Below the pieces are notes generated by a model. The model did no database searches and was not told where the DNA came from. It saw only the letters and a program-made list of their open reading frames with translations. A stretch of DNA of 64,000 bases from Planctomycetota bacterium (GTDB lineage Bacteria; Planctomycetota; Phycisphaerae; Phycisphaerales; SM1A02). The translations under genes were made by a program, and so were the position numbers. Positions 48,782 to 60,479 of this stretch are shown piece after piece; within the stretch, counting starts at the first letter, position 1, and every line of letters begins with the position of its first letter. The DNA is taken from contig VGXR01000006.1 in the NCBI GenBank assembly GCA_016873255.1, positions 1-64,000 on the forward strand. The letters are read 5' to 3'.

Positions 48782-49378
48782 TCAGCGGCGACGGCGGATG
48801 CCGGCGAGGCCAGCCACGCCCAGGAGCGCGAGCGCGCCCGGAGCGGGAATAGCGACAACGACGATCGGGGTGAGCGAGGTGGTCTCGTAGTACAGGTTGG
48901 TGATGGTGCGGTCGAGGAAGGTGTTACCGACGAGCATCGTGCCGAAGCCATACTTCGTGCCGTTATCAGAACCCCTCATGCGGAAGGCGAAGTAGTTGAT
49001 CTGGTTGAGCTTCCAGTTGCCGTTTGCTGAACCGAAGATGACTCCGCCGCTGCCGAAGCTGGCAGCGCTACTGACCGTGGTGCCAGGGGCGAGGCTGCCT
49101 GCCGATCCAGTGGTCACGCCGGGGAAGCGCATCATGCCGGTGCCCGGGGCGTTGAACCAGGCGAGTCTGTCTGCGCCGTACGGGTTGAGGTCCCAGCCAG
49201 CGAGGAGAGAGCCGGCCGAAGCGGTGCTTTGCGTCTCAAGGTTGATGTAGATACCGTCAAGGGTCGCGGGGATCGCGATGTTGCAGTTCAGCCAGCTGAC
49301 GACAGCGGCGTTGGCCGAGGCGGCCACGGCGACAGCAGCCGCAGCAGCGATGTGCTTCTCAAGACGAGCGTTACGCAT
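48782..49378 (-). CDS. PEP-CTERM-type exported protein 2
   Basis: 198 aa from ATG 49378. Signal peptide to about residue 27 (AVAASANAA). A short beta-rich domain follows, with no named family. The tail has IPAPGALALLGVAGLAG and four Arg (PEP-CTERM variant). The leader motif is shared with gene 1. The upstream in-frame extension to 49564 is rejected because it crosses the leader motif. Confidence 0.82.
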   Translation of the reverse strand: MRNARLEKHIAAAAAVAVAASANAAVVSWLNCNIAIPATLDGIYINLETQSTASAGSLLAGWDLNPYGADRLAWFNAPGTGMMRFPGVTTGSAGSLAPGTTVSSAASFGSGGVIFGSANGNWKLNQINYFAFRMRGSDNGTKYGFGTMLVGNTFLDRTITNLYYETTSLTPIVVVAIPAPGALALLGVAGLAGIRRRR

Positions 49379-49653
49379 TGGAGGGAACTCCAGTTGAAAG
49401 GGAAACGGGAACGAAGGTCGCCTGACGGGAGGGAGATCCGTTAGGTCATCGCCCTGCCTCACGGCAGGGATTCCGAACCGAGGGAGCAGTACGGAACAAG
49501 GGAAGGATGTCCCAAGACCGCCGCTAGGCAAGAAAATTGAACAGGAATTCGATGCGTGGCGCATCCGGGTGTTGAAAGCACGCGGTCTTGGCGCGTCAGT
49601 ACGGATTCGGCAGCTGAAATCTGCTTTTCCACACCTCCGCTAACCTTTGCCGG
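49379..49653. other. Divergent intergenic region, 275 bp
   Basis: Lies between the PEP-CTERM 2 start and the fucosidase start. Contains the leader element, a 7-bp hairpin (49452-49458 with 49463-49469) and a stretch more A/T-rich than its surroundings near 49530-49650. No ORF of substance and no recognised RNA. Confidence 0.5.
49383..49402 (-). promoter_or_regulatory. Conserved leader element of PEP-CTERM genes (copy 2)
   Basis: On the minus strand CCCTTTC (49396-49402), four bases, then GGAGTTCCC (49383-49391) and ATG four bases on. Nearly identical to the element before PEP-CTERM gene 1. Confidence 0.5.
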
Positions 49654-51243
49654 ATGAGCCCTGCGGCCCACGAATCCATGGTGTGGGCGGCTCAGCTGGC
49701 CCTCGCGGCGCTGGCCGAGCCAACGCCGGCAACCACCATGAGCCCCCTGCCGCCACCTGCTGACCATGTTGCACCAGCCGCCCCCGGCGAGGACGCGCCC
49801 CAGCCAGGTGCGCCCGCACCGTGCGAGCCGGTCCCCACCGCGGCGCAGCGGGCGTGGAAGGACGTTGAGTTCACTGGGTTCATCCATTTTGGGCCGAACA
49901 CCTTCACCGACCGGGAATGGGGCCACGGTGACGAGCCTGCAGCCGTGTTCAACCCAACGTCGCTGGATGCGCGGCAGTGGGTCCGCGTAATGAAGGACGC
50001 GGGGATGGGCGGCGTGGTGGTGACCGCCAAGCACCACGACGGGTTCTGCAACTGGCCGACAGCCAAGAGCGGGCACTCCGTGAAGGGGAGCCCGTGGAAG
50101 GACGGCGCTGGTGACGTGCTGCGCGATCTGTCGGATGCCTGCCGCGAGGCAGGGCTGAGGTTCGGCGTGTACCTGTCGCCATGGGACCGGAACAACCCTG
50201 CCTATGGCACGGGCGAGGCGTACAACCAGTACTTCCGCGACCAGCTGCGCGAGGTGCTCACGGGATACGGGCCGGTGTTCGAGGTGTGGTTCGATGGCGC
50301 GTGCGGCGAGGGGCCCAACGGCAAGCGGCAGGTCTACGACTTCGCGAGCTTCGAGCGGACGGTGCGCGAGCTGCAGCCGCAGGCGGTGATCTTCAGCGAC
50401 GTGGGGCCGGACATCCGCTGGGTGGGCAACGAGCAGGGCTGGGCCGGCGACACGTGCTGGTCGATGCTGAAGGCGAAGGGCCACGGACGCGGCGCGGACA
50501 ACCCGCCGCCCACGAAGAGCCTGAACGAAGGCGACGAGGACGGCGAGGCGTGGGTCCCGGCCGAGTGCGACGTGAGCATCCGCCCGGGCTGGTTCTATCA
50601 CGCGCACGAGGATGACAAGGTGAAGACGCCGGAGCAGCTCTTCGACCTCTGGGAGCGCAGCGTCGGGCACAATGCCAACCTCCACCTGAATTTCCCGGTG
50701 GATCGGCGCGGGCTGATCCACGAGAACGACGCGACGGCCGTGCGCGGGCTGCGCAGCTTGATCGATTCGACGTACGGGCCCGGGACCGATCTCGCGCGCG
50801 GCCGGGTGACGGCGGTCGACAACATCCGCGGCTTCGTGCCTCGAGGGGCCAGGGAGCCGCTGAGAGAGAGTGCCTTCGACGGATCGAAGGCGGTTGACGG
50901 CGATCCGCGCTCATACTGGGCGACAAACGATGCCGTGCGCGCGGCGACGATCGAGGTGGAGCTCGACCCGGGAGCGGCATGGGACCGCGTGGTGCTGGCC
51001 GAGCCAACCGAGCTTGGCCAGCGCATCCGCAGGTTCCGCGTGAGCGTGCCGGCGGGCCCGGGCACCAGCAACAACAACCGCGATTGGCGGGTGCTGGCCG
51101 AGGGCACGACGGTCGGACACAAGCGAATCGTGCGCGTGCCCGAGACGCACGCGTCGCGCGTGCGGGTGGAGATCCTCGACGCCCGCGCGTGCCCGCTGCT
51201 GTCGGTGGTGGGCGTGCACCACACGAAGTCGGGTCCGGGGTAA
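49654..51243 (+). CDS. GH29-family alpha-L-fucosidase
   Basis: 529 aa. Catalytic barrel (about 65-370): FTGFIHFGPNTFTDREWG, VVVTAKHHDGFCNWPT, RFGVYLSPWD, and the nucleophile Asp214 in FEVWFDGACG. The C-terminal ~130 residues form a discoidin/F5-8C-like beta domain (SAFDGSKAVDGDPRSYWA). N-terminus is Ala/Pro-rich with only a weak signal-like stretch (VWAAQLALAALA). Removes terminal L-fucose. The repeat at 51233 overlaps the stop. Confidence 0.88.
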   Translation: MSPAAHESMVWAAQLALAALAEPTPATTMSPLPPPADHVAPAAPGEDAPQPGAPAPCEPVPTAAQRAWKDVEFTGFIHFGPNTFTDREWGHGDEPAAVFNPTSLDARQWVRVMKDAGMGGVVVTAKHHDGFCNWPTAKSGHSVKGSPWKDGAGDVLRDLSDACREAGLRFGVYLSPWDRNNPAYGTGEAYNQYFRDQLREVLTGYGPVFEVWFDGACGEGPNGKRQVYDFASFERTVRELQPQAVIFSDVGPDIRWVGNEQGWAGDTCWSMLKAKGHGRGADNPPPTKSLNEGDEDGEAWVPAECDVSIRPGWFYHAHEDDKVKTPEQLFDLWERSVGHNANLHLNFPVDRRGLIHENDATAVRGLRSLIDSTYGPGTDLARGRVTAVDNIRGFVPRGAREPLRESAFDGSKAVDGDPRSYWATNDAVRAATIEVELDPGAAWDRVVLAEPTELGQRIRRFRVSVPAGPGTSNNNRDWRVLAEGTTVGHKRIVRVPETHASRVRVEILDARACPLLSVVGVHHTKSGPG

Positions 51244-51261
51244 ACCCGCACTTCTTTATCG
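51233..51261 (+). repeat. Copy of the GTCCGGGGTAA repeat (AMSDH leader)
   Basis: 29 bp overlapping the fucosidase stop. It differs from 55319-55347 (left arm of the kmo element) at only three or four positions, and its continuation (GCGGACC... CGGCAG) resembles the sequence inside the right arm of that element. Lies 22 bp before the dehydrogenase ATG. Confidence 0.75.
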
Positions 51262-51283: not shown

Positions 51284-52732
51284 ATGATGAATCGCGTGCC
51301 CAACTGGATCGACGGACGACCGCAGCCCGCGGCGCGCGGGTGCGAGATGCCCGTGGTCGACCCAGCCACCGGGGAGCAAGTGGCGATGCTCGCGGCTTCG
51401 GGTGCCGAGGACGTGGCGGAGGCGCAAACCGCGGCGGGGCGCGCGTTCCCGGCGTGGAGCGCGCGGCGCGCCCCGGAGCGAGCGGAACTGCTGGAACGAC
51501 TTGCGGGCCTGGTGGAGCGTGACCTCGACCGACTGGCGCGCCTGGAGAGCGTCGACAGCGGCAAGCCGCTGGCGCTCGCGCGGAGCGTGGACATCCCGCG
51601 CGCGGCGGCAAACCTGCGGTTCTTCGCCGAGGCCGTGCGTGCGTGGAAGCCCGACGAGGAGCTGCGCACGGCCAACTCCCAGTCGCTTGTGCTGCGGCGG
51701 CCCGCGGGCGTGGCTGGATGCATCAGCCCGTGGAACCTGCCGCTCTACCTCTTCACATGGAAGATCGCGCCGGCGCTCGCGGCCGGGTGCACGGTCGTCG
51801 CCAAGCCGAGCGAGGAGACGCCGATGACCGCGGCCGCGCTCGGCGAGCTGAGTGCGGAGGCGGGTTTCCCGGCAGGCGTGCTGAACGTCGTGCAGGGGCG
51901 CGGCGCCGACGCGGGCGCGGCGATCGTGGCGGACCCGGGCATCCCGGTCATCACGTTCACGGGCGGAACGGCGACGGGCGCGCGCATCATGCAGGTGGCA
52001 GGACCGATGTTCAAGCGCGTGGCGCTCGAGCTCGGCGGCAAGAACCCGACGGTCGTGTTCGGCGACGCGGACTTCGACGCGGCGGTTGCGGGTGCCGTGC
52101 GGGCGGGCTTCCAGAACCAGGGGCAGATATGCCTGTGCGGAAGCCGCGTGCTCGTGGAGCGCGGGACGTATGCGCGGTTCCGCGATGCGTTCGTGGAGCG
52201 CGTGCGTGCGCTGCGCGTGGGCGACCCGATGGAGGCCGGCACGGACCAGGGCTCGCTGGTGTCGCAGGCGCATCGCGCGAAGGTGGCGGCGGCGGTCGAG
52301 CGCGCGCGCGCGGAGGGCGGGCGCGTGCTGTGCGGAGGCGGTCCACCGGAGCCGGCGTCGCTTCCGGCGCGCGTGCGCGGCGGCGCGTTCTGGATGCCAA
52401 CCGTGGTCGAGGGCCTGCCGATGGGCTGCGCCACGAACCAGGAGGAGATCTTCGGGCCCGTGGTCACCGTTGCGCCCTTCGACGGCGAGGACGAGGCCGT
52501 GGCGCTTGCCAACCACAGCCGCTACGGGCTGGCCGCGAACGTCTGGACGCGCGACCACGCGCGCGGGCTGAGAATGGCCGAGCGGCTTGACTTCGGCATC
52601 GTGTGGATCAACGCTTGGCTGCTGCGCGACCTGCGCGTGCCGTTCGGCGGCACGAAGCAGAGCGGCGTCGGCCGCGAAGGCGGCGATGAGGCGCTGCGGT
52701 TCTTCACGGAACCGAAGGCCGTGACGTGGTGA
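51284..52732 (+). CDS. 2-Aminomuconate-6-semialdehyde dehydrogenase
   Basis: 482 aa NAD-dependent aldehyde dehydrogenase. Catalytic Cys in GQICLCGSR, Glu in LELGGKNP, coenzyme Gly in FTGGTATG, EIFGPVV near the C-terminus. Family alone would not give the substrate; its place beside kynurenine-pathway genes makes 2-aminomuconate semialdehyde (ACMSD product) the expected one, giving 2-aminomuconate. ATG ATG at 51284/51287; GTG 51275 also in frame. Confidence 0.82.
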   Translation: MMNRVPNWIDGRPQPAARGCEMPVVDPATGEQVAMLAASGAEDVAEAQTAAGRAFPAWSARRAPERAELLERLAGLVERDLDRLARLESVDSGKPLALARSVDIPRAAANLRFFAEAVRAWKPDEELRTANSQSLVLRRPAGVAGCISPWNLPLYLFTWKIAPALAAGCTVVAKPSEETPMTAAALGELSAEAGFPAGVLNVVQGRGADAGAAIVADPGIPVITFTGGTATGARIMQVAGPMFKRVALELGGKNPTVVFGDADFDAAVAGAVRAGFQNQGQICLCGSRVLVERGTYARFRDAFVERVRALRVGDPMEAGTDQGSLVSQAHRAKVAAAVERARAEGGRVLCGGGPPEPASLPARVRGGAFWMPTVVEGLPMGCATNQEEIFGPVVTVAPFDGEDEAVALANHSRYGLAANVWTRDHARGLRMAERLDFGIVWINAWLLRDLRVPFGGTKQSGVGREGGDEALRFFTEPKAVTW

Positions 52733-52758
52733 ATCCGTTCCTGGTTAGTTTGCCACCA
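52733..52758 (+). repeat. Inverted repeat left of the RidA gene
   Basis: 26 bp starting immediately after the dehydrogenase stop. The inverse copy is at 53293-53318 (23 of 26 match). Its first 16 bases equal the last codons and stop of kynB. Confidence 0.85.
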
Positions 52759-52822
52759 GTTGTTTTCTCCGGAGAAACGGGTCTGCGCCGGCTGGCCGCC
52801 CGTGAGGCACGAGGATCGATCG

Positions 52823-53248
52823 ATGACTGACGCACTGAACTCCGCGCGCGCGCCCGAACCCGTCGGCCCATACCCCCACGCCAAGCGCGTCGGCAACCTG
52901 CTCTTCATGTCCGGCGTGGGCCCGCGGGTGCGCGGGTCGAAGGAGATCCCCGGCGTGACGCTGGCAGCCGATGGCTCGGTGCAGAGCCACGACATCGAGG
53001 CGCAATGCAGGAGCTGCTTCGCGAATTGCCGCGCGGTGGTCGAGGACGCCGGCGCGCGGTGGGAGGACGTGGTGGACGTGACGGTGTTCCTGACGGACAT
53101 CCGGCGTGACTTCGCGGCGTACAACCGCGTCTACGCGGAGTGGTTCGCGGGGCCGGGCAACCCGAATCCCACGCGCACGACGCTCGGGATCACGGCGCTT
53201 CCCACGCCGATCGCGGTCGAGGTGAAGGCGATCGCCGTGATGCGGTGA
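52823..53248 (+). CDS. RidA-family protein, probable 2-aminomuconate deaminase
   Basis: 141 aa. GNLLFMSGVGP, the family's conserved VVDVTVFLTDI and the Arg in NPTRTTLGI. Rid proteins hydrolyse enamine/imine intermediates; in Pseudomonas and Bordetella nitrobenzoate/tryptophan routes a member of this family deaminates 2-aminomuconate. Position next to the dehydrogenase supports this. AGGA 8 nt before ATG 52823. Flanked by inverted repeats. Confidence 0.82.
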   Translation: MTDALNSARAPEPVGPYPHAKRVGNLLFMSGVGPRVRGSKEIPGVTLAADGSVQSHDIEAQCRSCFANCRAVVEDAGARWEDVVDVTVFLTDIRRDFAAYNRVYAEWFAGPGNPNPTRTTLGITALPTPIAVEVKAIAVMR

Positions 53249-53292
53249 AGTTCGTCCCGTTCCTCCCGGGCCATTTCCCGTGGCGCGGAAAT

Positions 53293-53318
53293 TGGTGCCG
53301 AGCTAACCAGGAACGGAT
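53293..53318 (-). repeat. Inverted repeat right of the RidA gene, within the kynB end
   Basis: 26 bp, inverse of 52733-52758. It contains the last five kynB codons and its TAG stop, and runs into the 54-bp gap between ridA and kynB. Confidence 0.85.
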
Positions 53319-53938
53319 TTCAGGATGGCGCGGACGGGGCTCGCGTCGGCGCCCTCGATGCGCAGCGGTAGCGCGATCAGCTCATAGCGGCCCTCGGGAA
53401 CGGCGTCGAGCACCACGCCCTCGATGATCGCGATGCCGGTGCGGAAGAACGCCGCGTGCGCGGGAAGGTCCTTGCTGTCGGAGCGGTCGACGCTCGGCGT
53501 GTCGATCGCGACCAGGCGCACGCCGCGCGTGTCGAGCCACTCGACGAGCGCGGGGTCGATCGATGCGAAGTCCGCGTTCCAGCGCTCGGGGTCGGGGAAG
53601 CTGCCCGTGGCAAGCACGAGCCGCTCGGTGCCGAACGGCACGCGGCCGGCGACATCCTGCACCGTGACGGCGCGGCCCCGCACACCGTCCACGCGCACGA
53701 CGATGCACGGGCCCACGTAGAGGTCGAGCGGCTGGCGGTCGATCGTCCCACCGCCCTTGCCGTAGTGCACCGGTGCATCGGCATGCGAGCCGAGGTGCAC
53801 GGTCGAGGTCACCGAAGACAAGGAGATGTGGTCCCCACGGTCGACGTGCATCGGCTCGCGGCGCTCGAACGGCGTGTCACCCGGGAACACCGCGAGGCGC
53901 GCGGAGATCACCGGCGAGATGTCGTGGATGCGCGTCAT
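53303..53938 (-). CDS. kynB: Kynurenine formamidase
   Basis: 211 aa cyclase-family metal hydrolase that deformylates N-formylkynurenine. Metal motif HLGSHADAPVH (H-x-G-S/T-H-x-D-x3-H) near 49-59, ISPVISARLAVFPGDTPF at the N-terminus. ATG 53938 overlaps the kmo stop (ATGA). Last gene of the minus-strand kynurenine run. Confidence 0.9.
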   Translation of the reverse strand: MTRIHDISPVISARLAVFPGDTPFERREPMHVDRGDHISLSSVTSTVHLGSHADAPVHYGKGGGTIDRQPLDLYVGPCIVVRVDGVRGRAVTVQDVAGRVPFGTERLVLATGSFPDPERWNADFASIDPALVEWLDTRGVRLVAIDTPSVDRSDSKDLPAHAAFFRTGIAIIEGVVLDAVPEGRYELIALPLRIEGADASPVRAILKSVPG

Positions 53939-55308
53939 GGCCACTTGCTCCCCGCCGACGCCGCGCGAACCGCGAACGCCGCCAGCGCCACAAGAGCCAC
54001 GAACGCTACGGTCGCAAGCGCCGCACCGGCCGCCAGCACCGTGCGATCTTGCCTGCGCGCGCGATCGCGCGCCGCCGCATACGGCACCGTGGTGAAGCTC
54101 ACGAGGTCGTAGAGCGGCACGAACGCGCGTGGCATGACGCGATTCAGCGCGTGGTCGAGCTTCTTCTTGAGCCGGAAGCTGAGGTGCGCGGTGCGGTCGC
54201 GCATCTCGACGAAGTTGTTGAGCGCCATGTCCGCGATCGCGTCGGCATTTGGCTTGCGCTCGCGCTGGTATTCCTCGAGCGCGCAGGACACGTCGGACGG
54301 GTTGCGCTCGAGCGCGTCCACGAGGCACTCGCAGTCCTCGAAGCTCGCGTTCGCGCCCTGGCCGTAGAACGGCACGATGGCATGCGCGGCGTCGCCGAGC
54401 AGCGCGAATCGGCCGCCCATGGCCCACGGCCAGCAGCGGATGGTGACCATCGAGCCGACCGGGTTGCGGTCGAAGTCCTCGGCGAGCGTCGGCATGATCG
54501 GCACCGCGTCGGGATAGACCCGCCGGAAGTACTCGAGCGCCGCGCGGCCGTCGCGGACGGATGCGAACGAGGCGTCGCCGCCGCCCTCGAACGGCCAGAA
54601 GAGCGTGCACGTGAAGCTGCCGTCGGGATTCGGGAGCGCGATCATCATGCTGCCGCCGCGCGGCCAGATGTGGAGCGCGTTCGGGTCCATCGCGAACGGC
54701 GCGTGCGGGCCGGCGGCTACGGGCGGGATCACCAGCTCCTTGTAGCCGTGCGCGAGCGACGACTGCGAGTACTCGAACCGCTCTCGCCGCTCCATGTGCC
54801 CGCGCACCGCGCTGAATGCGCCGTCGGCGCCGACCACGAGGTCCGCCTGGGCCTCGACGCGCGTCCCGTCCTGCCACTCGAAGACCGCGGCACCACGCTG
54901 CTCGTCGAGGCCGGTGCAGCGATGGTCGAAGAAGAGCTCGACGTTCGGGTGCGCCGCCGCCGCGCGCAGCAGCATCATGTTGAGCGCGCTGCGGCTGAAG
55001 CTGACGATCGCGCGGCTCGGGTCGGCCGAGTACGGCACGTACATCGTCTGCCCGGCGGCGGAATGGAGGATGCGCCCGGGCATGCGGATGCCGTGGGTAC
55101 GCACCTCCTCGGCGAGTCCGGCGCGCTCGAGCGCATGCAGGCCGCGGGCGCTGATGGCGAGGTTGATCGATCGCCCACCCACGCACCCGCGCGCGCGCGG
55201 GTCGCCGCGGCGCTCGAACACGCGAACGTGCCACCCGCGCCGGCCCAGGAAGTGCGCCAGGAGCGAGCCGCCGAGTCCGGCGCCGATGATGACCGCGGTG
55301 CGTGGCAT
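53935..55308 (-). CDS. kmo: Kynurenine 3-monooxygenase
   Basis: 457 aa FAD monooxygenase making 3-hydroxykynurenine with NADPH and O2. GAGLGGSLLAHFLGRRGW (FAD), GRSINLAIS, VGADGAFS, GDAAHAIVPFYGQG, the last being the KMO-type flavin motif. A single hydrophobic helix sits at the C-terminus (about 422-450, with flanking Arg), as in eukaryotic KMO. 3 bp of spacer to the inverted repeat upstream, no good ribosome binding site. Confidence 0.93.
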   Translation of the reverse strand: MPRTAVIIGAGLGGSLLAHFLGRRGWHVRVFERRGDPRARGCVGGRSINLAISARGLHALERAGLAEEVRTHGIRMPGRILHSAAGQTMYVPYSADPSRAIVSFSRSALNMMLLRAAAAHPNVELFFDHRCTGLDEQRGAAVFEWQDGTRVEAQADLVVGADGAFSAVRGHMERRERFEYSQSSLAHGYKELVIPPVAAGPHAPFAMDPNALHIWPRGGSMMIALPNPDGSFTCTLFWPFEGGGDASFASVRDGRAALEYFRRVYPDAVPIMPTLAEDFDRNPVGSMVTIRCWPWAMGGRFALLGDAAHAIVPFYGQGANASFEDCECLVDALERNPSDVSCALEEYQRERKPNADAIADMALNNFVEMRDRTAHLSFRLKKKLDHALNRVMPRAFVPLYDLVSFTTVPYAAARDRARRQDRTVLAAGAALATVAFVALVALAAFAVRAASAGSKWP

Positions 55309-55311
55309 GCG

Positions 55312-55438
55312 AAATTGTGTCCGGGGTAACCCCGCACTCCTTTGTCGAGACTCAGGCGACGAGACCCATGTCGCGCCGCCGCCGCTGCCGGATGCAAGGT
55401 CCGCGCAAAACAGTGCGGGGTTACCCCGGACACAATTT
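55312..55438. repeat. 127-bp palindromic element between kynU and kmo
   Basis: Perfect 27-bp inverted repeats at 55312-55338 and 55412-55438 enclose 73 bp. The right arm overlaps the kynU stop (55437) and the left arm ends 3 bp from the kmo start, so the element is almost the entire intergenic space. A partial direct copy is at 51233-51261. Size and structure suggest a small palindromic (REP/MITE-like) element or a regulatory hairpin. No transposase seen. Confidence 0.9.
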
Positions 55439-56720
55439 AGCGTCCGCAGAGCGCGGCTGCCGCGGCGCGCGCGTCCTGCCAGCCGCTGTAGAGCGGCACG
55501 GGTGCGAGGCGCACGATGTTCGGCTCGCGGAAGTCGCACACGATGCCGCGGCGGCCGAGCTCCGCGTGCCGCGCGCGCGCATCCCGCTCGAACGCGATGC
55601 TCAGCTGCGCGCCGTGCGCTCCGGGCGCATCCGGCGTCACCACGCGGCAGCCCTCCGGGCCCCACGCCGCGATCAGCGACCGCAGGTACCCCGTCACGGC
55701 GCGGCTCTTCGCGTGCAGCGCATCCATCCCGACGCGGTCGAAGATCCGCAGGCTGGCCAGCAGCGGGGCAAGCGCCATGATCGGCGGGTTCGAGCACTGC
55801 CAGCCGTCCGCACCCACGCGCGCCGTGAACTCGGGCCCCATGGCAAACCGCGTGGCAGGGTCGTTGCCCCACCACCCCGCGAAGCGCGGCAGGTCCGTCC
55901 GCCGCCCGTGCCGCTCGTGCACGAACGCGCCAGCCACCGCACCCGGGCCGGCGTTCAGGTACTTGTACGAGCACCAGCACGCGAAGTCCACGTCCCACTC
56001 GTGCAGCCTCGCCGGGAGGTTCCCTGCCCAGTGCGCCAGGTCCCAGCCCGCGACCGCGCCCACGGCATGCGCAGCCGCGGTGATGCGCGCGATGTCGAAC
56101 GCCTGGCCCGTCGCGTAGTTCACGCCGCCCACCATCACCAGCGCGAGCGACTCGCCAGCCTCCCGGATCGCGTCAAGGAGGTCATCCTCGCGGATGAGCG
56201 CCTCGCCCGCGCGCGGCCCGACCTCGATCACCTCGCGCGCCGGGTCGAGCCCACGCGCGCGCACGTGCGTCTTCACCGCGTAGGTATCGCTCGGAAACGC
56301 GCCGCGCTCCATCAGCACCTTGGTGCGCCTGCCCTCGGGCCGCCAGAAGCTCACCATCAGGAGGTGCAGGTTCACCGTGAGCGAGTTCATCATCACCACC
56401 TCGCCCGGCCGCGCGCCCACGAGCCGCGCGCCCAGCTCGCGGAACTGCTCGTGGTAGTCGACCCACGGCCGCCGCGCATGCAGGTGACCCTCCACGGCAA
56501 GCCGCGACCAATCGTCGAACTCCTCCTGCACCAGCCGGCGCGCCTCGCGCGGAAGAAGGCCCAGCGAGTTCCCGCAGAGGTACGTGAGCGGTGCGCCGTC
56601 CGCGCCGCGCGGGAACTCGAACTCCTCGCGCACGGCACGGAGCGGATCCGCCGCGTCCATGCGGGCCGCGAACTCGGCGGAAGCATCAAGGGGATTCGGC
56701 ACGGTCGCGGTCATGGTCAT
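55437..56720 (-). CDS. kynU: Kynureninase
   Basis: 427 aa PLP enzyme cleaving (3-hydroxy)kynurenine to (3-hydroxy)anthranilate and alanine. PLP Lys253 in WCSYKYLNAGPG, LCGNSLGLLPR, GWDLAHWAGN, VTPDAPGAHGAQLS. ATG 56714 has the better ribosome binding site (GGAG, 7 nt) and would shorten it by two codons. 12 bp after the ACMSD gene. Confidence 0.95.
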   Translation of the reverse strand: MTMTATVPNPLDASAEFAARMDAADPLRAVREEFEFPRGADGAPLTYLCGNSLGLLPREARRLVQEEFDDWSRLAVEGHLHARRPWVDYHEQFRELGARLVGARPGEVVMMNSLTVNLHLLMVSFWRPEGRRTKVLMERGAFPSDTYAVKTHVRARGLDPAREVIEVGPRAGEALIREDDLLDAIREAGESLALVMVGGVNYATGQAFDIARITAAAHAVGAVAGWDLAHWAGNLPARLHEWDVDFACWCSYKYLNAGPGAVAGAFVHERHGRRTDLPRFAGWWGNDPATRFAMGPEFTARVGADGWQCSNPPIMALAPLLASLRIFDRVGMDALHAKSRAVTGYLRSLIAAWGPEGCRVVTPDAPGAHGAQLSIAFERDARARHAELGRRGIVCDFREPNIVRLAPVPLYSGWQDARAAAAALCGR

Positions 56721-56732
56721 ACTCCCTCGGCC

Positions 56733-57797
56733 TCACGCGGTGGCATCGACATGCGGCGGCACGCGCCCATCTCCCGCGCCACCCGCGGCGCGCACCGCTC
56801 GCGACGCACGCTCGCCGAGGAAGGCCGCCGCGGCGCCGTGCAGGATGCTCTCGCGCATCTCGGCGTCCAGCCACCCGGCCTTGCGCACCACCTCGCCCGC
56901 CGACAGCTCGCCGAGCGGAAACGGGTAGTCCGTGCCCAGCGCCACCTTGCCATTGCCAGCCACCGAAAGCAGGAGCCGCAGCGCCTCGGGGTCGTGCACC
57001 AGCGAGTCGAACCACACGCGCCGGATCGACTCGCGCGGCGATTCGCGCGTCATCGTCTGGCAGAGGTCGGGCCGCTCGCGGAAGCCGTGCTCCCAGCGCC
57101 CGAGCGTCATCGGCGCGGCACCGCCCCCGTGCGCGAACCCGATGCGAAGCGACGGCAGCCGCTCGAGGACGCCGCCGAAGCACACGCTGCCCACCGCGAG
57201 CGCCGTCTCTGCCGGCATGCCCACGAGCCACGGGAACCAGTGCCGCGGCATGCGGTCGGCGGCCATCATGTCCCACGGATGCACGAACACGCACGCGCCC
57301 AGCGCCGCCGCGGCCTCGAGCACCTCGACCACCGCAGGATCGTCGAGGTTGCGGCCGTTCACGTGCGAGCCGATCTGCACGCCGGGCATGCCGAGCTCGC
57401 GCACGCACCGCTCGAGCTCGCGCACCGCGAGCCGCGGGTCCTGCATCGGCACGGTGCCGAGGCCCGTGAAGCGGTCCGGAAATGCCTGCACGACCCCCGC
57501 CACGTGGTCGTTGAGGAACGCCGCCAGGTCCGCCGCATCCTGTGCCTTGGCCCAGTAGCCGAACATCACGGGCACCGTGCTCAGTGCCTGCACGCGCACG
57601 CCGGAAGCGTCGCAGTCGGCCACGCGCACCGCCGGGTCCCAGCAGTTCGACTGGATCTCCCGGAACATCCTCCCGTCCTTCCACAGGCGCGCACGGCACG
57701 CGCCGCAGTGCTCGATCGACACCCAGCCCGGGTACCCGTACTTCGCGCACAGGTCTGGCCAGCGCTCCGGCAGGATGTGCGTGTGGAGGTCGATCAT
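56733..57797 (-). CDS. nbaD: 2-Amino-3-carboxymuconate-6-semialdehyde decarboxylase
   Basis: 354 aa amidohydrolase-fold zinc enzyme. [16 protein letters not shown] (HxH metal ligands at 5 and 7), [24 protein letters not shown] (His and the family pattern, in two parts), [11 protein letters not shown] (Asp). Decarboxylation of ACMS removes the precursor of quinolinate. The longer in-frame reading upstream of 57797 is antisense-like and rejected. Confidence 0.93.
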
Positions 57798-57844
57798 CGT
57801 GGTCCGTGGCTGCCGCGCGAAGCGCGCACGGCCGGCGCCTTGCC

Positions 57845-58432
57845 TCAGTACGGACGCATCACGCGCGTGCCGCACTTGCGACAGGTGCAGAGCTTCTCGT
57901 CGGCCCAGAACTCCTCCATGGCCCTCTTGAAGTGCTGCACGATGTCCTTGCAGCAGAACACCTTGTCGTAGACCAGTTCCCCGCACTTCTCGCAGAAGAA
58001 CATGAGGTGCTCCGGCTCGGTCTCGGGGCGCCGCCGCTCCACGACCAGGCCCAGCGTGTCCGGCCCGCGCTGCGGGCTGTGCGGAACGCCGCCGGGGATG
58101 AAGAACGTCTCGCCCTCGCGCACGGGGACGTCCCTGATGCCGTCCTTGTCGCGGATGCGCACGACGATGTCGCCCTTCAGCTGGATGAAGAACTCCTCGC
58201 TGTCGGTCATGTGGAAGTCGTTGCGCGCGTTGGGGCCCGCGATGACCATCACGAAGAAGTCCTGCCCGCTGTAGAGGTACTTGTTGCCGACCGGCGGCAC
58301 CATCATGTGCCGGTTCTCGGCGATCCACCTCATCAGCCCGACCGACGGCGCGACGGTGCCGTCGGTCATGAAGCCCGTGGGGTCGCCGAGGTCGTTCGTA
58401 GCGCGCTGCGCCGTGGCGGAGGCGGTGTGCAT
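57845..58432 (-). CDS. nbaC: 3-Hydroxyanthranilate 3,4-dioxygenase
   Basis: 195 aa cupin. Iron ligands His74, Glu80 and His118 ([19 protein letters not shown]), and a C-terminal rubredoxin-like site from Cys147, 150, 184 and 187, the bacterial form. Opens the aromatic ring to give ACMS. 47 bp from the ACMSD gene. Confidence 0.95.
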
Positions 58433-58508
58433 CGCCCGAGGATACCTGCGTGCGCAGCCGCTCCCGCCCCGGACGAGTCGCCCGCACCGCTCCGAACCCG
58501 ATGCTCCG

Positions 58509-59306
58509 CTACAGCCGCGTCCTGATCGCCCACAGATCCGGGAACAGCGGGTTGAACAGCGTCGTCCGCAGGTACGCAGCCCCCGGGCTGCCGCCCGTGC
58601 CCTGCTTGAAGCCGATGGTGCGCTCCACCATCTTCACGTGGCGGTAGCGCCACTCCTGGATGCCCTCGTCGAGGTCGACGAGCAGCTCGCACACGCCGCG
58701 CTCCGACGGGCACTCGCGGTAGAGCGCAAGCAGCGTCTCCTGGAACGCGGGCCATTCCTGCATCGGCTGCGTGACGTCGCGCGCGAGCAGCTCCGCGGGC
58801 ACCGCATGCCCCCGCGCGGCCACGAAGCGCGCGAACGCGTCGTACACGGTCGGCGCCGCGTACCGACGCTCCAGCGCCGCGCGCTCGGCGCTGCCCTCCG
58901 GGTAGTGCGCGAGCATGCGCGGGTTCTTGTTGCCGAGCAGGAACTCGAACTCGCGGAACTGCGCGCTCTGGAAGCCGCTCGAGTTGGCCAGGAAGCTGCG
59001 GAAGGACAGGAAGTCGACGGGCGTCATCGTCTCGAGCACGTCGATCTGCTGCACCATGGTCTTGAGGATGGTGAGCATGCGCTTGAGCGTCGGTGCCGCA
59101 TGGACCGCATCGCCGGACAGCAGGCACCCGACGAGCCGGTCGCCCTCGTGCAGCTGCTGCCTGAACCACAGCTCGTACACCTGGTGGATGACGATGAAGA
59201 GCATCTCGTCGTGCTCGGGCTGGTCGGACCCGGGCGCACGCGAGAGCGGCTGCTGCAGCGAGAGGAGCTCGGGGACCTTGAGGTAGCTGCCGTAGGTGAT
59301 GTTCAT
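58509..59306 (-). CDS. kynA: Tryptophan 2,3-dioxygenase
   Basis: 265 aa haem enzyme starting the pathway. YGSYLKVPELLSLQ, IHQVYELWFRQ (substrate and haem-distal region), EWRYRHVKMVERTIG (proximal His) and KQGTGGSPGAAYLR. Start ATG 59306 with AAGG 9 nt upstream. First gene of the minus-strand run; 76 bp to the next. Confidence 0.95.
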   Translation of the reverse strand: MNITYGSYLKVPELLSLQQPLSRAPGSDQPEHDEMLFIVIHQVYELWFRQQLHEGDRLVGCLLSGDAVHAAPTLKRMLTILKTMVQQIDVLETMTPVDFLSFRSFLANSSGFQSAQFREFEFLLGNKNPRMLAHYPEGSAERAALERRYAAPTVYDAFARFVAARGHAVPAELLARDVTQPMQEWPAFQETLLALYRECPSERGVCELLVDLDEGIQEWRYRHVKMVERTIGFKQGTGGSPGAAYLRTTLFNPLFPDLWAIRTRL

Positions 59307-59383
59307 GTGGAAGCCTTGCCGCCGCGGCGAGGCCCGCGCGGTCGCCCGGAGAGTACGGCTGAAGGACCTGCCAATCATGGACG

Positions 59384-59461: not shown

Positions 59462-60262
59462 TCAGGCGCGCCGGCGCGGCCTCAGCGCCATTGCCAATCC
59501 GAGCGCCGCCAACGCACCCGGCGCCGGAACGGCATTGCCGTAGAACGCCGAGGTCTGGCCGGTGACTCCGTCGCGGACATTCACATTGGCTCGCCAGCCG
59601 AAATCAAATGTGTCCGTCGGCAACAGCGGGTAAGTCACGTTGCCCGCGACGAAACTGAGGTTCTGCAGGGAGGCGTTGGCAAGGACGAGATGAGCGCACC
59701 AAACCCCCCACTGCGCGCCCGCTGAGCCGGGTGAGCCCGCAATGGACCCGTTCGGTAATGTCGGGCCACTGTCGTAGCGAGCGTAGTTGCCGTTGAAGAA
59801 ATTCAGGCTAATCGCCTTCGTGTCGATGCTGGGCGGATTCGAGGCGAACCAGCCACTAATGCCATAGGCCCCGATCGAGTTGTCGGACTGCCCGCCACCC
59901 CACGCGGGGTCGGGAGCCGACGATGCCGAGGCGAAGTACTCGCCGTAGATCTGCTGCCCGCCCGTGCAGCCGATGGTGAAGAAACTGTCGATCGAATTGT
60001 TGGTGCTTGTCGCTGTCGGTTTCCAGGGTTGAGCGCCGGACCCTGTCGGGTTCTGTAAGAAGCCGCCGGCGAGATTGGTGGCGCAGCTGACGTTGTAGCA
60101 GGCGAGCACCCGATCGGTGGAGTTGCTGGTCCCGGCAAACATGTCGATGACCAAATCCGAGCCGACTTGCCTGGCGTAGGTAATGAAGCCGAGAAACCCG
60201 GCGTCAGCATGCGCGCAGAGCGTTGCCACACCGGCAGCGGCGAGGATGAGAGACCTATTCAT
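59462..60262 (-). CDS. PEP-CTERM-type exported protein 3
   Basis: 266 aa. Signal peptide to about residue 20 (CAHADA). The body is beta-rich with paired Cys residues (CYNVSC, FTIGCTGG) and is not similar to the other two. Tail VPAPGALAALGLAMALRPRRRA, the PAP form of PEP-CTERM. The C3T3 leader (60281-60288) is weaker than in the others. Confidence 0.8.
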   Translation of the reverse strand: MNRSLILAAAGVATLCAHADAGFLGFITYARQVGSDLVIDMFAGTSNSTDRVLACYNVSCATNLAGGFLQNPTGSGAQPWKPTATSTNNSIDSFFTIGCTGGQQIYGEYFASASSAPDPAWGGGQSDNSIGAYGISGWFASNPPSIDTKAISLNFFNGNYARYDSGPTLPNGSIAGSPGSAGAQWGVWCAHLVLANASLQNLSFVAGNVTYPLLPTDTFDFGWRANVNVRDGVTGQTSAFYGNAVPAPGALAALGLAMALRPRRRA

Positions 60263-60479
60263 GATTCGACCTCGTTTGGTGAAAAGGGGGTAAGGGGCGC
60301 GCGGGGCACCGCGCGCTTGTGGGAGGAGCCACAAACATCCGTGAAGAACGGGCGCGGCGCAAGTAAAACTTTGCCCGATCGCTCAGTGCATTCCCTAAGT
60401 GTCTTTCAGTGATTGGCTTAGGCGCCCCTCCCGCAGCCAAGGCCACTCACCGCCCCCACCGGCCGCGCAGACCCGACGC

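Follow-up and report, generated by a model that had tools for sequence, protein, structure and literature searches.

Tryptophan and 2-nitrobenzoate degradation via 3-hydroxyanthranilate is known in Proteobacteria such as Burkholderia and Pseudomonas fluorescens, and animals degrade kynurenine through ACMSD and ALDH8A1 and then through 2-oxoadipate and glutaryl-CoA. To our knowledge, the reductive step that follows 2-aminomuconate has no assigned gene in any organism using the reductive route; for animals, too, we are aware of no gene named as the reductase. The authors of a 3-hydroxyanthranilate cluster in ascomycetes likewise leave the reduction to 2-oxoadipate open (PMC7842363). Here we analysed an eight-gene kynurenine cluster at 51284-59306 of a 64,000-nucleotide stretch (the window), which is the first 64 kb of the 71.8-kb contig VGXR01000006.1 from a Planctomycetota bacterium of the Phycisphaerales (genome of 2.78 Mb, 97.5% complete). 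The explanation that fits best overall, and which we consider likely, is a tryptophan-degrading cluster kept in planctomycetes, whose route would end reductively through a short-chain dehydrogenase (SDR) encoded outside the window.

The locus resembles each of the described systems in part. It shares with the proteobacterial route the series of HAAO, ACMSD, AMSDH and a RidA-type 2-aminomuconate deaminase, but that route ends with meta-cleavage enzymes, which are absent in this genome, and among solved structures the bacterial ACMSD and KMO are more distant than the animal ones. ACMSD is matched best by human ACMSD (405 bits, against 222 bits for the 2hbv-type bacterial ACMSD), and KMO by the animal KMO 6lkd (340 bits; 324 bits to 6fox and 206 bits to 4j2w), as against 206 bits to the solved bacterial enzyme. 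By these scores, both proteins are nearer to the animal enzymes than to the Pseudomonas ones. The animal route has in common with the window the enzymes up to 2-aminomuconate and, as predicted here, the reductive ending, whereas animals have no compact cluster and this genome has no glutaryl-CoA dehydrogenase. The ascomycete cluster (PMC7842363) also groups 3HAO, ACMSD, AMSDH and a YjgF/RidA gene, but it is fungal and described without clustered kynA, kynB, kmo and kynU. In the amn 2-aminophenol pathway (Pseudomonas AP-3, B. xenovorans LB400), AMSDH and the RidA-type AmnE likewise act on 2-aminomuconate semialdehyde and 2-aminomuconate, but 2-aminophenol enters via LigB dioxygenases, and decarboxylase, hydratase and aldolase stand at the end.

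An earlier note, made from the window alone, had described the cluster as a full kynurenine catabolic set. All eight open reading frames (ORFs) are present and unbroken (Table 1) and every family label held, including those of kynA, kynB, kmo, kynU, haao, ACMSD and AMSDH. The layout is also as claimed, with the aldehyde dehydrogenase (ALDH) gene and ridA running rightward and converging on six leftward genes, kynB-kmo-kynU-acmsd-haao-kynA. KynU and HAAO pass their curated families (TIGR01814, 411 bits with a cut-off of 246; TIGR03037, 187 bits with a cut-off of 146), and HAAO also matched PF06052. KynB (TIGR03035, 204 bits) and KynA (TIGR03036, 271 bits) stay under the curated cut-offs of 223 and 391, while neither has a competing family and they matched PF04199 and PF03301 respectively. 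ACMSD keeps the motifs HxH, HPWDM, FAHGGG and LGTDYPFP. Among solved ALDHs, the top match of AMSDH is the 2-aminomuconate-6-semialdehyde dehydrogenase 4u3w (422 bits); its top NCBIfam is 2-hydroxymuconic semialdehyde dehydrogenase, below cut-off, and the alignment keeps the catalytic Cys/Glu/Asn regions and the NAWxxRDLRxPFGG motif. The top solved relative of the RidA protein is the 2-aminomuconate deaminase AmnE (6izh, 76 bits), for which Ser35, Gly36, Glu88, residue 103, Arg117 and Lys135 are named as cleft residues (PMC6742747); five of these six residues are kept and Glu88 is replaced by Asp. For the dehydrogenase and RidA, whose place in the pathway the earlier note had named as a point for refutation, the top matches are thus to the specific enzymes.

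Family and gene order suggest the functions of all eight proteins, which very likely make up a pathway from tryptophan to 4-oxalocrotonate. KynA would open the indole ring of L-tryptophan, KynB would take off formate, and KMO and KynU would lead to 3-hydroxyanthranilate, whose ring would be opened by HAAO. ACMSD would then decarboxylate the product ahead of quinolinate formation, AMSDH would yield 2-aminomuconate, and the RidA protein would deaminate it to 4-oxalocrotonate.

To see how widely the cluster is kept, 392 sampled Planctomycetota genomes were surveyed, and it turned out that 43 of them carry a true ACMSD (46 at a loose E-value, three of those weak). Outside the phylum, the groups with ACMSD include Bacteroidota, Ignavibacteriota, Myxococcota and Gammaproteobacteria such as Colwellia, so the view that such a compact set is chiefly proteobacterial, and hence surprising here, is not supported. 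The named relatives are Phycisphaerales, the nearest being two metagenome-assembled genomes with ACMSD identities of 84 and 93%. The search for the same gene order in related genomes, which the earlier note had proposed, found it conserved: locus L063 has identical eight-gene content and order (76-85% identity), the convergent layout recurs in 23 of 102 ACMSD loci, and all seven genes other than kynA occur together in 19 of the 102, where contig ends truncate some loci, two locus sources partly overlap and the counts are not independent. Chance clustering is excluded by this conservation. AMSDH and RidA are linked to ACMSD in several phyla, which bears out their assignment to the pathway.

The gene trees, also proposed earlier, gave a partial answer. 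The window falls within planctomycete groups in the HAAO and KynU trees and beside Phycisphaerales in the ACMSD and ALDH trees, with no sign of recent transfer, while the deeper branches are poorly resolved. A recent transfer from Proteobacteria was rejected on this grouping with Phycisphaerales. The cluster is a good but unexceptional representative of a widely conserved pathway, with a predicted ending unlike the characterised bacterial one. No description of planctomycete kynurenine catabolism was found in the open-access literature searched, most subscription papers being outside the search. Besides, in Colwellia clusters (e.g. L098:11043-11882) the gene between ACMSD and kynU encodes a different protein of the cyclase family (PF04199), which is probably a non-orthologous kynurenine formamidase.

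When the genes surrounding ACMSD were clustered, an SDR gene emerged immediately upstream of AMSDH in planctomycetes, Bacteroidota and Colwellia; the cluster normally has this ninth member. In the present genome the ortholog is on another contig (G000:C27:20751-21560, minus strand), and for this reason it is invisible from the window. It is 52% identical to the query from L039, while the next SDR of the genome reaches 33%, and 44-65% identical to cluster-linked SDRs. The module moves in relatives as well, since SDR-AMSDH pairs sit 33-43 kb from ACMSD in G331 and G364 and an SDR-RidA pair about 62 kb from it in G360. The SDR was found in 66 of the 392 planctomycetes: 37 genomes have both ACMSD and SDR, 6 only ACMSD, 29 only SDR and 320 neither (Fisher p ~1e-27, kinship not corrected).

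Where classical SDRs have the catalytic Tyr-x-x-x-Lys, this SDR has Ser-Asn-Thr-x-Arg, which is invariant in 38 aligned members. A fold search with its confident structure model (pLDDT 93.8) gave AerF as the top match and BacG/YwfH as the eighth, with scores so close together among SDRs that the ranking inside the superfamily is a weak guide. AerF, which we take to be a reductase of a conjugated 2-oxo acid, likewise lacks Tyr and Lys at the catalytic positions. The substrate that BacG reduces is a conjugated 2-oxo acid (PMC9147277). Reducing 4-oxalocrotonate to 2-oxoadipate would belong to the same reaction type, which is support by analogy and not proof; AerF and BacG/YwfH differ from the partner SDR in their tyrosine-derived substrates and their roles in aeruginosin or peptide-antibiotic biosynthesis, at 28-29% identity. 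We tentatively propose, with a chance somewhat short of even, that the unlinked SDR would reduce the C=C bond of 4-oxalocrotonate (or 2-aminomuconate) to give 2-oxoadipate in the animal fashion, in place of a meta-cleavage ending.

The same SDR occurs in a second kind of cluster. For 20 of the 29 planctomycetes with SDR but no ACMSD, the neighbourhood was inspected, and in 12 of these 20 a luciferase-like monooxygenase is adjacent to the SDR, mostly together with an Asparaginase_II protein (L181, L182, L187, L189-L196 and L200). The most complete of these clusters, for instance L187:379-8701, add AMSDH, two LigB subunits, RidA, kynA and kynB, the full set not being present in all loci. One LigB protein is matched to the 2-aminophenol 1,6-dioxygenase beta subunit (360 bits). 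No solved relative of the luciferase-like protein was found by sequence. These genes suggest that kynurenine would be converted to 2-aminophenol and aspartate via Baeyer-Villiger oxygenation and ester hydrolysis. Both clusters would arrive at 2-aminomuconate semialdehyde, each by its own ring cleavage, and AMSDH, RidA and SDR occur in both. Because this module is common to both, the SDR is placed at or after 2-aminomuconate, and we regard its action there as probable. A more doubtful, though possible, extension is that the reduction of 4-oxalocrotonate or 2-aminomuconate to 2-oxoadipate serves both the window route and a second one, which would run from kynurenine to an aspartyl ester of 2-aminophenol, whose hydrolysis would release aspartate and 2-aminophenol, the ring of the latter then being opened to the same semialdehyde. 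A kynurenine route via 2-aminophenol was not found described in the open-access literature searched, with the same limit on subscription papers as above, and this second planctomycete route is apparently undescribed.

Besides the closely spaced fold scores and a co-occurrence test that ignores kinship, several observations weigh against a reductive ending through this SDR. Six of the 43 ACMSD genomes have no SDR, several of these genomes being incomplete, and the SDR on C27 has a GH95 fucosidase and a peptidase as neighbours and nothing from the kynurenine pathway. No acyl-CoA dehydrogenase (PF02770) was found in this genome, unlike in the 15 other members of its family that were sampled, so that the step from glutaryl-CoA to crotonyl-CoA is not possible in the genome as assembled; an ending via glutaryl-CoA dehydrogenase was accordingly rejected here. 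In G342 the sole acyl-CoA dehydrogenase is FadE-like. In favour of an animal-type ending, OGDH E1 (C-terminal family) is present as a candidate part of its 2-oxoacid dehydrogenase complex, and a cluster-bearing genome of the same family (G376) encodes proteins resembling glutaryl-CoA dehydrogenase.

The pathway might instead stop at 4-oxalocrotonate or at 2-oxoadipate/glutarate, to be excreted or recycled, and the cluster would then harvest nitrogen, alanine and formate or remove toxic intermediates and not carry ring carbon to acetyl-CoA. The genome lacks both an acyl-CoA dehydrogenase and the meta-cleavage aldolase, and the encoded steps would release alanine, formate and ammonia. However, the relatives have acyl-CoA dehydrogenases, and G376, of the same family and with a linked cluster, has one protein that among solved structures is matched best by glutaryl-CoA dehydrogenases, together with another that is very similar to it judging by profile scores; about 2.5% of the present genome is possibly missing from the assembly. 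We consider such a stop rather unlikely.

It is less likely still that the SDR is a hitch-hiker outside the pathway, e.g. a sugar dehydrogenase. SDRs are abundant and the fucosidase neighbour on C27 would fit this, but the SDR adjoins AMSDH in three phyla and occurs in two different clusters, the copy of this genome is close to the cluster-linked SDRs, and the lost Tyr-Lys pair speaks against an ordinary alcohol dehydrogenase.

The earlier note had correctly seen no regulator and no later meta-cleavage gene in the window. A classical meta-cleavage ending encoded elsewhere (4-oxalocrotonate decarboxylase, hydratase, aldolase and acylating acetaldehyde dehydrogenase) is very unlikely. Bacteria are known to process 2-aminomuconate in this way in the amn pathway (PMC6742747, PMC3790839), and the genome has a FAHD-like protein. 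Nevertheless, 4-hydroxy-2-oxovalerate aldolase (TIGR03217) was not found in this genome (29.5 bits with a cut-off of 286) or in any sampled ACMSD-bearing planctomycete, contrary to the expectation of later meta-cleavage genes; the model passes in one of the 392 genomes, which has no ACMSD. It was used over the phylum because a DmpG domain search was uninformative, with control genomes unmatched. Neither 4-oxalocrotonate decarboxylase nor 2-oxopent-4-enoate hydratase was found in the genome by PF01557, whose only two members there are fumarylacetoacetase and the FAHD-like protein, while E. coli MhpD, the positive control, matches. By gene content, the proteobacterial ending is very probably not used here.

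Finally, it is hardly credible that the cluster serves quinolinate and NAD synthesis: some bacteria do have kynA, kynB, kmo, kynU and haao as their set for the NAD route (PMC4217691), but ACMSD diverts 2-amino-3-carboxymuconate semialdehyde, AMSDH and RidA follow, and the NAD route was rejected on the presence of nadA elsewhere in this genome, which makes NAD synthesis independent of the cluster. Since ACMSD and its two followers divert the flow from quinolinate and nadA lies elsewhere, the cluster is, by its gene content, degradative, in agreement with the earlier note.

The coordinates of the features are summarized in Table 1.

Table 1. Features of the kynurenine cluster, in positions of the window
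Feature	Position	Strand	Basis
2-aminomuconate-6-semialdehyde dehydrogenase (AMSDH), putative, 482 aa	51284..52732	+	solved relative 4u3w; ACMSD linkage
RidA-family 2-aminomuconate deaminase, putative, 141 aa	52823..53248	+	solved relative AmnE 6izh; AMSDH/ACMSD linkage
kynB, kynurenine formamidase, putative, 211 aa	53303..53938	-	TIGR03035, PF04199
kmo, kynurenine 3-monooxygenase, animal-like, putative, 457 aa	53935..55308	-	KMO 6lkd, 6fox, 4j2w
inverted repeat pair (GTGTCCGGGGTAACCCCGCAC) between kynU and kmo	55309..55441	no strand	arm complementarity, RNA folding
kynU, kynureninase, putative, 427 aa	55437..56720	-	TIGR01814 above cut-off
acmsd (ACMSD), putative	56733..57797	-	human ACMSD match, kept motifs
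3-hydroxyanthranilate 3,4-dioxygenase (HAAO), putative, 195 aa, C-terminal CxxC pairs	57845..58432	-	TIGR03037, PF06052
kynA, tryptophan 2,3-dioxygenase, putative, 265 aa	58509..59306	-	TIGR03036, PF03301

The leftward genes are tightly packed, with a 4-bp overlap of kynB and kmo and 12 bp between kynU and acmsd. A palindromic repeat, present in two inverted copies, occupies the whole kynU-kmo gap, with arms of 36 nt that are 92% complementary, and a diverged third copy lies at 51231-51251. The predicted, very strong RNA hairpin abuts the kmo start codon (minimum free energy -90.1 kcal/mol, z -7.6) and may split the six-gene leftward unit into two. The start of kynA is most likely 59306, with an alternative in-frame ATG at 59378. 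A second repeat, of the CTGGTTAGTTTGCCACCAG type, forms an inverted pair bracketing ridA (52732-52761 and 53290-53319), and strings similar to it, as translated, adjoin the SDR on C27 (L145). A GH29 alpha-L-fucosidase (window 49654-51243) adjoins the cluster, and a GH95-family protein lies beside the detached SDR (L149:10107-13199 on C27), perhaps a coincidence in a genome that degrades fucose polymers. What's more, the ORFs at 48782-49564 and 59462-60334, on either side of the region, have PAPGAL...RRR tails resembling PEP-CTERM-type sorting signals.

In conclusion, the eight-gene cluster itself is a modest find and the SDR is the real lead. Complete animal-like tryptophan degradation appears to be well established in many planctomycetes and no proteobacterial curiosity, and the shared SDR is a concrete candidate for the step after 2-aminomuconate. 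If this is true, the SDR would allow bacteria to end the kynurenine route much as animals do, and the second cluster would represent a new kind of kynurenine degradation without KMO, kynureninase, HAAO or ACMSD.

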